Of a DNA stretch of 64,000 nt, positions 24,086-36,211 are shown piece by piece. The stretch comes from Sorangium aterium (GTDB lineage Bacteria > Myxococcota_A > Polyangia > Polyangiales > Polyangiaceae), in the NCBI RefSeq assembly GCF_028368935.1, contig NZ_JAQNDK010000002.1:310001-374000 (forward strand), written 5' to 3'. Made by a program: the position numbers and the translations under genes. Numbering within the stretch: position 1 is the stretch's first letter; the number at the start of each line of letters is the position of its first letter. The notes beneath the pieces were generated by a model, which was given only the letters and a program-made list of their open reading frames with translations, ran no database searches and was not told the origin of the DNA.

Positions 24086-26062
24086 GTGCCCGTCCTCACC
24101 GCTCACGATCTCCACAAATCCTTCGGTCCCCAGACGATCCTCGACGGCGTCTCGGTCAACATCCGCACCGGCGAGCGCGTGGGCCTGGTCGGCGTCAACG
24201 GCTCCGGCAAGAGCACGCTCGCCCGCATCCTCGCCGGGGTCGAGCAGGCCGACAGCGGCACCATCGCGCGCCGCCGCGGCGCCGAGATCGGCGTCCTCTC
24301 GCAGGATCCGGTCTTCGAGCCGACCGACACCGCGCGCGACGTGGTGCTCGCCGGGCTCTCCGCCTGGCACGCCGCCAAGGCCCGCCACGACGAGGTGAGC
24401 CGGGCGCTCGCGGCCGGCTCGGGGGACGCCGAGGCGCTCCTCGCCGAGCAGGCCGAGGCCGGGGCCGACGTCGAGCGGCTGGGCGGGTGGGACATGATGC
24501 ACCAGGTCGACGCCATCATCGGCCACGTCGGCGTCACCCGGCCCGACGCGCCCATGAGCGTGCTCAGCGGCGGCGACCGCAGGCGCGTCGCGCTCGCCCG
24601 CCTCCTCGTGTCGCGGCCCGCCCTCGCCGTGCTCGACGAGCCCAGCAACCACCTCGACGTCGAGACCGTCGAGTGGCTCGAGCGCTACCTCGTCGAGGAG
24701 CACCCCGGCGCGCTCCTCCTCATCACCCACGACCGCTACCTGCTCGACCGCGTCGCGGAGCGCACCCTCGAGATCGACAAGGGCAAGGTCTACAGCTACG
24801 ACGGCGGCTACGAGGAGTACCTCGAGCAGAAGGCCGAGCGCCTCGCGCTCGAGGCGCGCACCGAGTCGAACCGGCAGAACTTCCTGCGCACCGAGCTCGA
24901 GTGGCTCAGGCGGCAGCCGAAGGCGCGCACCGGCAAGCAGAAGGCCCGCATCCAGCGCGCCGAGACGACCAAGAGCGCGCCGCCGCCCAAGGCCGAGCGA
25001 ACCGCGCAGCTCTCGGTGGAGTCGGTGCGCACCGGCAAGACCATCCTCGAGCTGAAGAAGCTCGGCCTCTCGCTCGACGGCAAATGGCTCGTGCGCGGCC
25101 TCGACTTCACCCTGACCAAGGGCGAGCGCGTCGGCATCGTCGGCCGCAACGGCACGGGCAAGACCACGATGCTCCGCGCGATCCTCGGCCAGCTCGGCGC
25201 CGAAGGCGACGGCGCCGCCGCCGAGGGGCCCCGCATGGAAGGCGAGGTCGTGCTCGGAAAGAACTCGAGCGTCGCCTACTTCGACCAGCACAGGAGCGGG
25301 CTCGACCTCGACAAATCGATCTTCGAGAACATCGCGGGCTCGCACACGCGCGTCGAGGTGGGCGGCCGATCCATGGACGTGCGCAGCTACCTGGAGCGGT
25401 TCCTGTTCGATCCGAACAAGGCGCGGCAGCCGGTGGGCTCGCTCTCCGGCGGTGAGCGGGCGCGGGTCGCCCTGGCGAAGATGCTCACCCAGAGCGTCAA
25501 CGTGATCATCCTCGACGAGCCCACGAACGATCTCGACGTGATGACCCTCGCCGCGCTCGAGGAGATGCTCATCGAGCTCGACGGCTCGGCGCTCGTCGTG
25601 ACCCACGACCGCTGGTTCCTGAACCGGGTGGCGACCTCGATCCTCGCGTTCGAGGGCGACGGCCGGGTCGTGCGGTACGCGGGCAACTACGACGCCTACC
25701 GCGAGCAGCGCGCGAACGCGGCGCTCGAGAGCGAGGCCGAGGCCCGGGCTGCGAAGGCCCAGGCGGCGGAGGCCCGGCCGGCGGCGGCGCCGGCGAAGCC
25801 CGCCGCGCGGGCCGGCGACAAACCGAAGCTCACGTTCGCGGAGCGGACGGAGCTCGACGGCATCGTGGGGCGCATCGACGCGGCCGAGCAGAAGGTCGCC
25901 GAGCTCGAGGCGAAGCTCGCCGACCCGACGCTCTACGCGAGCCGCGGCGCGGACGTGGCGGCGCTGCTCTCGGAGCTCGAGCGCGCCAAGCAGGAGGCGG
26001 CGCGCCTGGTCAGCCGCTGGGAGGAGCTCGAGACGAAGCGCGAGGCCGCCGGCAAGGCGTGA
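24086..26062 (+). CDS. ABC-F ATPase, Uup-like
   Basis: A 658-residue soluble protein with two ABC ATPase domains and no membrane segments. Domain 1 has [16 protein letters not shown], signature [15 protein letters not shown] and DEPSNHLD; domain 2 has [30 protein letters not shown] and DEPTNDLD. The signature serines, Walker B acids and the inter-domain linker (P-site tRNA interaction motif region, about 250-330) mark it as ABC-F, acting on ribosomes rather than in transport. The C-terminal coiled coil ([25 protein letters not shown]) is the hallmark of Uup, linked in other bacteria to DNA-excision and ribosome quality phenotypes. GTG start. It is housekeeping-like, unlike the second ABC-F protein. 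Confidence 0.88.
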
Positions 26063-26928: not shown

Positions 26929-29190
26929 ATGTCTCACTCCTCTCTACGTAGTCATACGCTCCTGGCGTTGTTCGCGGTCTCCGCGTTCGCGCCGGGCTGC
27001 GGCTCGGAGCGGCCGCAAGCGGGCGATACCAGGCCACCGGGCTCCGAGCCCGGTCAGGGGGCGCCCTTCGAGAACCCCGGCGGGATGTGGATGCCGGAGC
27101 AGATGGCGCAGCACAAGGACCAGCTCAAGGCGCTCGGGCTCGAGATCGATCCCGAGTCGCTCGCCGATCCCACGGCGTCCCCGCTCGGCGCGGTGGTGAG
27201 CCTGGGCGGCTGCTCGGCCTCGTTCGTCTCGCCCGATGGGCTCATCGCCACGAACCACCACTGTTCGACCCGGGCGCTCCAGTACAACTCCACCCCGGAG
27301 CAGGACCTCCTGACGAACGGCTACCTCGCGAAATCCCGCGCCGAGGAGCGATGGGCCGGCCCCACCGCGCGCGTGCTCGTGACCCGCGCGTTCCGCGATG
27401 TCACCGCCGAGGTGCGGCGCGGCATCGAGGCGATCCAGGGTGATCTCGAGCGCTACGACGAGATCGAGAAGCGCAAGAAGCAGCTCGTGACGGCGTGCGA
27501 GGAGGGGCGCCCCGAGATCCGCTGCTCCGTCGCCGAGTACTTCGGCGGTGGCCAGGTTTCCTTGATCGAGCAGCTGGAGATCAAGGATGTTCGCATCGTC
27601 TATGTCCCACAGGAGGCGATCGGCAACTTCGGCGGGGACATCGACAACTGGCGCTGGCCGCGCCACACCGGCGATTTCGCCTTCTTCAGGGCCTATGTCG
27701 GCAAGGACAACCGGCCTGCGGCCCACGCCGAGGACAACGTGCCTTACCGTCCGGCGCACCACCTGAAGCTCGCGTCGTCGCCGCTCCACCAGGGCGACCT
27801 CGTGATGGTCGCCGGCTACCCGGGTACGACGAACCGGCTCCGGACCGCGGCAGAGGTCGAGTCCGCGGTCTCATGGCTGTACCCGAAGCGGGTGTCGTTC
27901 TACGAGGAGTCGATCGCCCTCCTGGAGGAGCTCGGCAAGAACGACCCGGCCCTGCGGATCAAGGCGGAGCCGACCATCCAGGGCTACGCCAATTACCTGC
28001 TCAAGACGCGCGGCCTGCTCGACGGGCTGGTCCAGGGCGGCCTCGCCAAGGAGAAGGCCAAGCAGGAGGCCGACCTCAAGGCCTGGATCGACGCCGACCC
28101 GGAGCGCAAGGCGGCCTACGGCGGCGCGATCGAGCGGATCGCCGCGCTGCACGCCGAGCAGCGGGCGACGCGCGACCATGACGCGGCCGTGTCGGAGATC
28201 GCCTCGTCGGCGAGGCTCCTCGACGCCGCGGTCACCATCGTGCGCATGGCGGAGGAGCGGCCGAAGGCCGACGCCGAGCGCGAGGCCGAGTACCAGCAGC
28301 GCAACTGGGAGCGCCTCGAGCAGGCGCAGGCGTCGCTGCAGAAGTCGTACGACCGCGCGCTCGATCGGAGCACCTTCAAGCTGGCCACGAAGCGCGCGCT
28401 GCAGCTCGATCCGAAGGACAGGCCCGCGCTGCTCGGGAGCCTCGCGGGCACGCAGTCGCCGACGGAGGCCGGCGTCGCCGCGGCGATCGACGCGCTCTAC
28501 GAGAAGACGGCGCTCGAGGACGCGGCGACCCGGATCAAGCTCCTCAAGACGGCGACGCTCGAGGAGCTCCAGGCGAGCCGGGATCCGATGATCCGCCTGG
28601 CGCTCGAGCTCGCGCCTGTCGACAAGGCCATCGAGGCGCGGGACAAGGCCTACGCCGGGGCGATGAGCCTCGTGAAGCCGCGCTTCGTCGAGGCGCTCCG
28701 CGTGTACCGGGGCGGCCTCCTGGCGCCCGACGCGAACGGCACGCTCCGCATCACGTACGGCACCGTGCGGGGGTACCGCCCGGAGGCCAACAAGCCGGCG
28801 TATCGCCCGTTCACCACCCTCAGCGAGGTCGTGAAGAAGAGCACCGACAAGGCGCCGTTCAACACCCCGGCGACCCTGCTCGAGGCGGCGCGCGAGAAGC
28901 GGTTCGGCCCGTACGTGGACAAGGACCTCGGCGAGGTGCCCGTCTGCTTCCTGAGCGATCTCGACATCACGAACGGCAACTCCGGCTCTGCCACGCTGAA
29001 CGCGCGCGGCGAGCTCGTGGGCCTCGCCTTCGACGGCAACTACGAGGCGATGGCGTCCGACTGGCTGTTCATGCCGTCGATCACCCGGACCATCCACGTC
29101 GATTACCGCTACATGGAGTGGGTGATGGACGCGGTGTCGGGCGCGGACGCCGTGCTGAAGGAGATGGGCGGCAAGCCGGCCATCGAGTGA
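26929..29190 (+). CDS. S46 family dipeptidyl peptidase
   Basis: A 753-residue exported peptidase of family S46 (DPP7/DPP11/DAP BII type), which removes dipeptides from peptide N-termini. The N-terminus has a signal peptide and a Cys (FAPGCGSE) that may be lipidated. The chymotrypsin-like triad is visible: His in IATNHHCSTRALQ (about 110), Asp in DNWRWPRHTGDFAFFRAY (about 250), Ser in ITNGNSGSATLNARGE (about 685). The Asn-Trp pair before the Asp binds the peptide amino group in known structures. Between them sits the helical regulatory domain characteristic of the family. Probably part of this predatory or saprophytic organism's protein digestion. Confidence 0.93.
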   Translation: MSHSSLRSHTLLALFAVSAFAPGCGSERPQAGDTRPPGSEPGQGAPFENPGGMWMPEQMAQHKDQLKALGLEIDPESLADPTASPLGAVVSLGGCSASFVSPDGLIATNHHCSTRALQYNSTPEQDLLTNGYLAKSRAEERWAGPTARVLVTRAFRDVTAEVRRGIEAIQGDLERYDEIEKRKKQLVTACEEGRPEIRCSVAEYFGGGQVSLIEQLEIKDVRIVYVPQEAIGNFGGDIDNWRWPRHTGDFAFFRAYVGKDNRPAAHAEDNVPYRPAHHLKLASSPLHQGDLVMVAGYPGTTNRLRTAAEVESAVSWLYPKRVSFYEESIALLEELGKNDPALRIKAEPTIQGYANYLLKTRGLLDGLVQGGLAKEKAKQEADLKAWIDADPERKAAYGGAIERIAALHAEQRATRDHDAAVSEIASSARLLDAAVTIVRMAEERPKADAEREAEYQQRNWERLEQAQASLQKSYDRALDRSTFKLATKRALQLDPKDRPALLGSLAGTQSPTEAGVAAAIDALYEKTALEDAATRIKLLKTATLEELQASRDPMIRLALELAPVDKAIEARDKAYAGAMSLVKPRFVEALRVYRGGLLAPDANGTLRITYGTVRGYRPEANKPAYRPFTTLSEVVKKSTDKAPFNTPATLLEAAREKRFGPYVDKDLGEVPVCFLSDLDITNGNSGSATLNARGELVGLAFDGNYEAMASDWLFMPSITRTIHVDYRYMEWVMDAVSGADAVLKEMGGKPAIE

Positions 29191-29236: not shown

Positions 29237-30763
<1,527 letters not shown>

Positions 30764-30768
30764 ACGAG

Positions 30769-30888
30769 CTCCTGAATCCAGAGGGCCACATGGCCCGGTC
30801 ACGGGACGGGCAGGCTGCCTCGCGCGACCAGGGAGGCAGGGATGCCACCTGTCGCGCTCGCTACCTGCGACGGAGACCGATTCAGGAG
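30769..30888 (-). promoter_or_regulatory. Leader RNA with Shine-Dalgarno-sequestering stem (candidate attenuator)
   Basis: The ABC-F ribosome site lies within GATTCAGGAG (30778-30769 on the minus strand). Its exact complement CTCCTGAATC lies about 100 bases upstream (30888-30879). Pairing would hide the ribosome site. The upstream arm overlaps the last codons and stop of a five-codon reading frame, so a ribosome stalled there would free the site. The loop also contains the perfect palindrome GGGCCATGTGGCCC (30796-30783) and a seven-base stem CTGCCTC/GAGGCAG. Confidence 0.6.
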
Positions 30889-30899
30889 TTGATCTTCAC
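30882..30899 (-). CDS. Putative leader peptide MKINS
   Basis: GTG AAG ATC AAC TCC TGA: five codons with AGAGGAG (30915-30909) nine bases upstream. The TCC and TGA codons are part of the arm that pairs with the ABC-F ribosome site. Short leader frames of this kind control several antibiotic-resistance ABC-F and methylase genes by ribosome stalling. Identified from layout only. Confidence 0.5.
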   Translation of the reverse strand: MKINS

Positions 30900-30967
30900 C
30901 GGAGCACTCTCCTCTTGCGTCAGCCGTGCTCTCTAACAGACGGCCGAGGCCTGCGCAATCGGCGCGG

Positions 30968-31732
<765 letters not shown>

Positions 31733-33776: not shown

Positions 33777-34970
33777 ATGAGTCGACTGAATCTGTTTGCC
33801 CCCGAGGTCCGAGAGAACCCGTACCCCTTCTACGCGGCGCTGCGCCGCGAGTCGCCCGTGTGCCAGGTGGACCCCAACGGGATGTGGGTGGTCACCCGGT
33901 ATGATGACATCGTGGCGGCGTTCAAGAACACGCAGGTGTTCTCGTCCGCGGGGCTGCGCATGGCCACCGAGCCCCCGTTCCTCGGGCGATACAACCCCTT
34001 GTCCGACTCGATGATCGTCGCGGATCCGCCGCGACATACTCAACTGCGGAACCTGATCAACCGCGGCTTCACTGCGAACACCGTGGGCTCGATGGTGCCG
34101 CGGATGCGCTCTGCGGCCGCGCAGATCGCCGACGATCTGATGCGGCGGCGCGTGGTTGATTTCCTCCCTGAAGTTGCGTGTCGTGCGCAGATCCGATTGC
34201 TTGCCCAATTGATCGGCCTCGACCCTTCACTGGAGAAGCATTTTAATCGATGGACGGCGGATCTGGTCAGCGTCGGCAGCCTATCCCCGGAGGATCACAC
34301 GCGTCTCGATGAGGTGCGCCAGACCATCGACCAGATGGAGCGTTACATGCAGGATTTGCTGGCAGGCCGCCGTCACCAGATGGAGAACGATCTGGTCAGC
34401 GATCTGCTCCGGTCCCAGGTAAACGACAATTCGCTCACAGATAGAGATCTTGTCGCCCTCCTTTTCCTGCTCGTCGTCGCGGGGATGGAAACGACGGTTT
34501 CGCTGATGACCAACATGGCGTTGATCCTGTCCCAGCGGGCCGCGTGGATGGATCGTCTGCGGGCCGAGCCAGCGCTCATTCCGCGCTTCATCGAGGAAGT
34601 GCTCCGCTTCGAGCCGCCCGTGCATGCCACGATGCGGCTGACTCTAGCAGAGACAGAGATAGGCGGCGTGCGCGTCCCCGCGCATTCGGTCGTGGCGCTG
34701 CTTCTGGGTTCGGGCCTGCGCGACGAGACGAGATTCCAGGATCCGGACCGCTTCGAGCCCGAGCGTCGCGAGCCGACAAGCCTGGCATTCGGTCACGGTG
34801 CTCACTTTTGCCTTGGGGCTTCGCTGGCGCGCACGCAAGCCCGCGTGGTGCTGGAAGAGCTTCTGACCCGATATCATCGTTTTGAGCTCCGAGCTGAGCG
34901 TGTCGAGTGGAACTCGGTCCTCAACACCCGCTGCCCGGTCACGCTACCCATCGAATTGATCCCCTTCTAG
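33777..34970 (+). CDS. Cytochrome P450
   Basis: A 397-residue soluble bacterial P450. The heme-binding loop is FGHGAHFCLGASLAR with Cys345 as thiolate ligand; the I-helix oxygen-activation motif is VAGMETTV (about 234-241) with Glu-Thr-Thr in place of the common Asp/Glu-Thr; the ExxR of helix K is in EEVLRFEPPVHATMR; the C-helix heme contact ADPPRHTQLRNLINRGFT is present. No redox partner is adjacent. The neighbouring terpene cyclase suggests that it oxidises the cyclase product; P450s of the CYP264/CYP109 type sit beside terpene cyclases in Sorangium. AGGAAG six bases upstream supports the start. Codon use is less GC-biased than the flanking genes, hinting at transfer. Confidence 0.93.
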   Translation: MSRLNLFAPEVRENPYPFYAALRRESPVCQVDPNGMWVVTRYDDIVAAFKNTQVFSSAGLRMATEPPFLGRYNPLSDSMIVADPPRHTQLRNLINRGFTANTVGSMVPRMRSAAAQIADDLMRRRVVDFLPEVACRAQIRLLAQLIGLDPSLEKHFNRWTADLVSVGSLSPEDHTRLDEVRQTIDQMERYMQDLLAGRRHQMENDLVSDLLRSQVNDNSLTDRDLVALLFLLVVAGMETTVSLMTNMALILSQRAAWMDRLRAEPALIPRFIEEVLRFEPPVHATMRLTLAETEIGGVRVPAHSVVALLLGSGLRDETRFQDPDRFEPERREPTSLAFGHGAHFCLGASLARTQARVVLEELLTRYHRFELRAERVEWNSVLNTRCPVTLPIELIPF

Positions 34971-35308: not shown

Positions 35309-36211
35309 GTGGATGTCATCGAGCTCCGCACGTTGCAATGGGCTCGTCGACTACGGGTGGCGACCGACGACCGTGCGTTATCGCGCATCGAGGCGGCGCA
35401 CGTCGCATATCTGGCCGCCTGGGTGTTCCCTTCAGCAAACGTGCAGACATTGCAGTTGGCGTCTGACTTCACCGCCGTACTGTTCCTCCTGGACGATGCG
35501 TATGACGAGGGCAAGCTCAGCGCGGACCCTCAATCCGTCGCTAAGCTGAACGAGAAATACCTCGGCGAGCTCTTCGGTTATATCGAACCGGACCTCGATG
35601 ATCCCCTGACGCGTGGGCTACTCGACGTCCGCGATCGTATAAAGGAATGTCATCCACATTTCTTCCTGAACCGCTGGCTCTCGCATTTTCAGTACTACTA
35701 CGAGGCCAACCTCTGGGAAGCGAAAAATCGCAAGCAACGGAGGGTTCCCGGGATCGACGAATACATCATGATGCGGCGCTACAGTGGAGCCGTATATCCT
35801 TATTGCGATTTGATGGAACTGCTGCTCGATCAGCCGCTGCCTCTCGAGATAGTACAACACCCGCTGCTGCAGAGCGTCCGCGAGATATGTAACGATATTC
35901 TCTGCTGGACCAATGATTACTTCTCGCTCGAAAAGGAGCTGAGGTCGGGCGAGGTGCACAACCTGATCGTCGTCCTTCGGGACAACGCGGGGCTGACGCT
36001 GGCGCAAGCTGTCGAACAGCTCAGGCGCATGCACGACGCCCGGGTCGCAGAGTACCAGGACGTCAAAGAGAAGGTGCTCTCGTCATGGTCGGCCAGCGGG
36101 ATCCGCCAGTACCTGGCCGCGACAGACGCCATGATCGCAGGCCATCAGCGCTGGGCGCTGGCAGCGCTCCGCTACGCCGAGCTTGGGGGCATCGTCGCGA
36201 ACGCCGGGTGA
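35309..36211 (+). CDS. Class I terpene cyclase (N-terminally frameshifted)
   Basis: A bacterial class I terpene synthase (geosmin/2-MIB/sesquiterpene cyclase superfamily) that ionises a prenyl diphosphate. In the 300-residue frame from GTG 35309: first metal site LLDDAYDE (Asp62, Asp63, Asp66), pyrophosphate sensor region MRRYSGAVYPYCDLMEL, NSE triad NDYFSLEKE (Asn202, Ser206, Glu210), and the C-terminal Arg-Tyr pair ALRYAELGG. Catalytic parts are complete. The expected N-terminal 30 residues are in another frame (35223-35305); adding one C in a C4 run would give a normal enzyme of about 329 residues. It lies 338 bases after the P450 gene. Product cannot be read from sequence. Confidence 0.85.
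   Translation: MDVIELRTLQWARRLRVATDDRALSRIEAAHVAYLAAWVFPSANVQTLQLASDFTAVLFLLDDAYDEGKLSADPQSVAKLNEKYLGELFGYIEPDLDDPLTRGLLDVRDRIKECHPHFFLNRWLSHFQYYYEANLWEAKNRKQRRVPGIDEYIMMRRYSGAVYPYCDLMELLLDQPLPLEIVQHPLLQSVREICNDILCWTNDYFSLEKELRSGEVHNLIVVLRDNAGLTLAQAVEQLRRMHDARVAEYQDVKEKVLSSWSASGIRQYLAATDAMIAGHQRWALAALRYAELGGIVANAG

Follow-up and report, generated by a model that had tools for sequence, protein, structure and literature searches.

A short upstream reading frame and a stem over the Shine-Dalgarno site of a Sorangium ABC-F gene: a probable translational attenuator responding to ribosomes held near a start codon

The second ABC-F gene of the window (the whole 64,000-nucleotide stretch of Sorangium aterium DNA analysed here) lies on the minus strand at 29237..30763 and encodes 508 aa plus stop. 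Its ATG at 30763 is preferred over a GTG at 30802, since in sister species an indel of 1 nt between the two codons disrupts the longer version. The upstream neighbour, an SDR oxidoreductase gene, ends at 30968, so the leader described below occupies intergenic space, and a peptidase S46 gene (26929-29190, plus strand) is convergent with the ABC-F gene. Read 5' to 3' on the minus strand, the intergenic region begins with promoter-like sequences predicted from sequence, a putative -35-like TTGCGC (30953..30958) read by eye and a putative -10-like TAGAGA (30930..30935) proposed from the window together with sister species. An arrangement of TTGCGY, exactly 17 nt and then TA(C/G)A is common to the window and three other Sorangium species, and a transcript start would be expected near 30923; the pair is treated as putative since a consensus scan of the locus gave no canonical sigma-70 promoter. 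There follow the leader Shine-Dalgarno (SD) site AGAGGAG (30909..30915), nine bases 5' of a GTG and with its GAGGAG core kept in all five Sorangium species compared, and the leader open reading frame (uORF) GTG AAG ATC AAC TCC TGA (30882..30899; MKINS, stop), a frame that is conserved in orthologues although its peptide is not. The 5' (anti-SD) arm (30879..30888) begins inside this frame and is separated by a loop of about 100 nt (30779..30878), structured in the predicted fold, from the 3' arm (30769..30778), which contains the ABC-F SD five bases before the ATG. A terminator scan found no intrinsic terminator at the locus, and no Rfam match came near the gathering score within 30700-31000. 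At 30901-30912 on the minus strand, a CTCC just 5' of the GTG offers a pairing partner to the GGAG within the leader SD, and leader initiation may itself be damped, since both sequences are kept across the five Sorangium species, with differing loops (AGTG or AGCA). Elsewhere in the window, the first ABC-F gene (24086-26062, plus strand) is Uup/EttA-like, and a cytochrome P450 recognized by eye from an FGHGAHFCLGA motif (33777-34970, plus strand) is followed by a protein that by eye appears terpene-synthase-like (35309-36211, plus strand), the two possibly forming a small terpene cluster.

The product of the second gene has two ABC_tran stretches and no membrane-domain family, as in a two-domain ABC-F protein, and carries a long two-helix linker at 195-299 (helices 195-247 and 255-299; AlphaFold2 mean pLDDT 89). 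The best NCBIfam model is the ribosomal-protection ABC-F family NF000355 at 264 bits, below its 380-bit cut-off, so that a resistance function is not established by this match; the Msr model scores 187 bits against a cut-off of 680. The nearest solved structures are VmlR2 (Z 34.7), VgaL (34.6), VmlR (32.5), human ABCF1 (32.3) and EttA (31.3). This picture fits a resistance-type factor without proving one, since resistance ABC-Fs have no clear sequence signature (PMC6723617). Patchy presence among related species is an indicator for them (PMC6723617) that this protein displays, being found at E <= 1e-50 in 39 of 108 family genomes and 19 of 48 genera, to which incomplete assemblies add noise. 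It is likely that the protein is an antibiotic-resistance factor.

The first-pass annotation had proposed that a stem hides the SD site of this gene, and its coordinates for the leader, the SD, the arms and the ABC-F start all proved right to the base. The 5' arm CTCCTGAATC is, as it claimed, the exact complement of the 3' arm GATTCAGGAG, and the RNA folding that it recommended pairs the two: the region 30760-30920 folds at -72.7 kcal/mol, more stably than its shuffles (-62.9 +/- 4.2; z -2.3; 3 of 200 as good). The combination is also rare in this genome. Among 241 long, high-GC3 open reading frames in 464 kb (the window and a further 400 kb of its genome), this ABC-F gene was the only one with a perfect SD-containing arm of 8, 9 or 10 nt whose partner lay 60-180 nt upstream and was overlapped by a 2-7-codon reading frame. 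In four other Sorangium species the leader, both arms and the leader SD are nearly unchanged, and the loop varies in sequence and length. MKINS is an odd variant among them: the four have MKISS, with AGC for AAC at codon 4, and a perfect stem of 12 bp as against the 10 bp of the window species. An attenuator operating through a uORF at this gene is very likely real.

The arrangement extends well beyond Sorangium. Orthologues came from 39 of 108 genomes of the family, 6 of 10 of a second family of the order and 12 of 104 of the phylum; the matches listed in a scan of genome contigs comprised So ce26 and distant ABC-Fs. The annotation had proposed looking for conservation of the leader frame and compensatory changes in the arms, and named loss of either beside a retained gene as the outcome that would count against it. 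Leader frame and arms are instead kept and co-vary: in a curated reading that includes near-copies, 43 of the 45 orthologues from the same order (42-100% protein identity) have an upstream reading frame of 2-7 codons, and a recognisable leader is absent in two (L011 and L053). Nor is the annotation's other adverse outcome, transcript starts downstream of 30879, favoured by the promoter-like sequences, which lie upstream of the leader. Elsewhere in the phylum a leader was recognised in four of nine orthologues and not in the other five. Three of the four are weak; in the fourth, L150, at 36% protein identity, an MR frame lies under a 15-nt helix that includes four G-U pairs. ATG mini-ORFs of up to 7 codons occur between -175 and -60 in 30 of 54 loci, where shuffles predict 7.6, many of the remaining loci using GTG or TTG. 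The curated leaders were chosen by eye, those of L142, L143 and L148 being weak choices, and translation is assumed for those lacking an SD. L011 keeps a stem of GGGAACACG with CGTGTTCCT over the ABC-F start region without a leader reading frame. In the three orthologues L144-L146, which belong to another family, a site of almost the same sequence in each, AAAGGAGGTCG, is complementary to a CGACTTCCC segment upstream of it, and no short leader is clearly visible.

What the leaders encode varies freely. Five-codon leaders include MKISS, MKFSS, MRHCS, MRLFS, MALRS, MRTPS, MAHSS, MTSSS, MTISS, MTTSS, MTTTA, MTTSR, MTDRR, MTTRR, MTLSH, MTAPR and MTAEA; other lengths are represented by MTHS, MTA, MRS, MTTSSLS and MRTSSST and by the two-codon frames MR, MS, MT and MA. 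The peptides share only their Met, no conserved arrest sequence being found, and ten leaders of two or three codons form one supported clade (100/98) that has R, S, A or T at position 2.

The arms, in contrast to the peptides, keep their relationship. When each leader region was scored with its own SD region against those of all other loci, own partners paired better than permuted ones (22.6 vs 17.6 +/- 0.6 over 38 loci, 0 of 20,000 permutations as high; 20.7 vs 14.9 +/- 0.6 over 32 loci in a thinned set with a tighter window, 0 of 50,000), a comparison that preserves composition and general CTCC/GGAG complementarity but ignores relatedness and uses leaders picked by eye. Arms that have changed and are still complementary include ACTCCTGAAGC/GCTTCAGGAGT in L054, GACCTCCTCG/CGAGGAGGTC in L051 and GAGCTCCTCT/GGAGGAGCTC in L047. 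Weak helices, scoring below 18, were seen at 8 of the 38 curated loci (L010, L017, L019, L046, L049, L052, L061 and L148), and the best match lies off its expected place in a few more (L045, L055). When the best helix was sought blindly across some 200 nt of upstream sequence, spurious GC-rich helices dominated, at the window's own locus included, and for this reason the analysis was anchored on curated leaders and permuted partners.

The position of the arm follows the leader start rather than its stop. Measured from the start, the arm centre lies at +14.2, +13.2 and +12.2 for leaders of 2-3, 4-5 and 6-7 codons, and measured from the stop at +6.0, -3.6 and -9.2. A ribosome on a start codon reaches to about +16, which is the position of the 30S toeprint on vmlR (PMC9226507). 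In simulations in which a footprint blocked 30 nt, the mean unpaired probability of the ABC-F SD rose from 0.16 in the free RNA to 0.43 with the footprint at the leader start and 0.44 with it on the last leader codon (p about 2e-8 and 2e-7, without correction for relatedness), and was 0.15 with control footprints elsewhere. Because the peptide varies freely and the arm stays at a constant distance from the start codon, we favour a start-codon signal over peptide-specific arrest, although the last-codon footprint frees the SD as well as the start-codon footprint does, which counts against start-specific sensing.

We propose that by default the arm beginning inside the leader frame pairs with the ABC-F SD, as sequence, covariation and folding show, and that this pairing would hold ABC-F expression low. 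A ribosome on the leader would, judging from the simulation, cover the anti-SD arm, which spans roughly +8 to +21 counted from the leader start, and so free the SD, the signal most likely being a ribosome held at or just after the leader start codon. The inducers in nature would be compounds that act on the peptidyl transferase centre and halt ribosomes on or close to a start codon (lincosamides, pleuromutilins and streptogramins A, for example), and the induced ABC-F protein would dislodge such drugs, as its family and the known ABC-F uORF systems suggest. Inducers resembling a lincosamide, pleuromutilin or streptogramin A are likelier than peptide-specific macrolide stalling, since sensing at or near a start codon has been described for the uORFs of vmlR, cplR and are5sc. 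Taken as a whole, it is probable that the leader is a translational attenuator in which start-codon ribosomes held by drugs are the signal and ABC-F production is the response; the sensing step itself, of ribosomes held near the start codon by peptidyl transferase centre drugs, is rather likely.

The same simulation gives room to a more general switch, in which any slow or frequent translation of the leader, as might follow starvation, poor recycling or many drug classes, opens the stem to produce a housekeeping stall-relief factor rather than a resistance factor. A footprint anywhere on the leader opens the ABC-F SD, EttA is structurally close behind the resistance factors, and in E. coli toiL a similar RNA responds to at least five classes of drug (PMC12121999). 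Such a switch nonetheless fits poorly with a gene present in only 39 of 108 family genomes, with a ribosomal-protection family as best model and with the fixed distance from the start codon, and we consider it unlikely.

The first-pass annotation had itself read MKINS as a stalling leader, and this part of its proposal gives way before the variation of the peptide, a whole clade having MR*, MS*, MT*, MA* and MRS* frames. Peptide-specific stalling in the manner of ermCL, with MKINS or its relatives arresting the ribosome in concert with a macrolide- or phenicol-like drug, would account for the leader and the stem, both of which do exist, and for the Ser or Ala that ends most five-codon leaders. 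MRLRRA (L148) and MRLFS (L009/L033-L037), which resemble known macrolide-arrest motifs, are counted on its side as well. Nothing beyond Met is common to the leader peptides, however, and the clade with two- and three-codon frames has R, S, A or T in second place. The terminal Ser, for its part, is dictated by pairing, since the frequent Ser-stop ending TCCTGA is the complement of TCAGGA; phenicol-type sensing through a Ser or Ala leader end was set aside on the same ground. Stalling on a specific peptide is accordingly improbable, more so than the general switch. The L148 leader, TTGCGTCTGCGCCGCGCCTGA, encodes MRLRRA and so contains MRLR, which resembles a macrolide-arrest motif, and this lineage might sense a different drug class. 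That the stem is a constitutive translation damper or an RNA thermometer with an incidental reading frame is very improbable, for although the fold by itself hides the ABC-F SD, a mini-ORF recurs over the arm at the same place in divergent orthologues, and the spacing between its start codon and the arm is constant.

A second class of leaders lacks an SD. SD-less ATG leaders are listed for L010, L012-L019, L032, L038-L056 and L059-L061. ATG is the start codon in each of the 28 curated SD-less leaders, and in 27 (all but L150) a stable hairpin precedes it, ending no more than about 4 nt away. Across the 28 the mean z is -1.8, and 14 reach the 5% level individually; the 10 loci scored as SD-led have a mean of 0.0, and most SD-led leaders lack the hairpin, although L019, one of the ten, also has it. 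The hairpin seemingly lies near the mRNA 5' end, as a TGCTA element is found at a similar distance upstream. It may promote leader initiation, protect the 5' end or act as an operator; a DNA operator in place of an RNA hairpin is disfavoured by changes on both sides of the stem, with 18 double-change cells vs 7.8 in shuffles (1 of 500 as high). SD-less starts have been described in unstructured RNA (PMC3121790), and the literature searched held no account of a hairpin directly before an SD-less start. As a tentative reading, with the chances somewhat against it, myxobacteria might use a minimal, peptide-blind attenuator in which a uORF reduced to as little as Met-X-stop is a decoy start codon whose occupancy is the signal, most lineages launching the decoy without an SD from behind a 5'-end hairpin that finishes a few nucleotides from the AUG.

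Short uORFs controlled by antibiotics have already been described on other ABC-F genes (PMC9226507; PMC10201436; PMC12421871). Among the closest is Bacillus subtilis vmlR, where a very short uORF lies 5' of the ABC-F gene, sensed drugs stall initiating ribosomes and a hairpin partly hides the ABC-F SD; variants of its uORF sequence work, MIN functioning too as MDN, MDK and, less well, MRK (PMC9226507). The vmlR and Sorangium leaders are unrelated in sequence, and vmlR works by transcription termination with anti-antiterminator logic, whereas the scan here revealed no intrinsic terminator and it is the uORF region itself that pairs with the SD. In Clostridioides difficile cplR and in LsaA, a uORF of three or four codons and an SD-sequestering structure likewise serve translational attenuation, and the uORF peptide varies among ABC-Fs of similar drug spectra (cplR MR[I/M], VmlR2 MK[L/Q], LsaA MAGN; PMC10201436). 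A terminator overlaps the SD hairpin of cplR and its peptide is conserved within a clade, unlike in the present leaders, whose peptide varies freely and whose frames can be as short as two codons. Streptomyces are5sc (MLV) and tiaA are also ABC-F genes of a high-GC antibiotic producer, with start-codon stalling on their uORFs by lincomycin, tiamulin and pristinamycin IIA (PMC12421871), but they belong to another phylum, have other leader sequences and are proposed to use a terminator and antiterminator. The E. coli toiL uORF of topAI is, similarly, a Gram-negative translational attenuator in which upstream RNA masks the SD until ribosomes stall on the uORF, its start codon included (PMC12121999); it differs in its toxin-antitoxin operon target, its longer multi-drug uORF and its link to Rho termination. 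No report of uORF control of ABC-F genes in myxobacteria was found in the literature searched, many subscription papers being outside its reach. Set against the known ABC-F uORFs, the present system differs in lacking a detected intrinsic terminator, in a uORF region that itself pairs with the SD and in frames as short as two codons without peptide conservation.

These results would extend ribosome-sensing control of ABC-F genes to the myxobacteria, a major antibiotic-producing group, and their natural variation suggests that a sensor of this kind can dispense with a conserved peptide. About 40 natural variants of 2 to 7 codons make start-codon sensing directly testable, and the attenuator could be used to report unknown drugs that target the peptidyl transferase centre.
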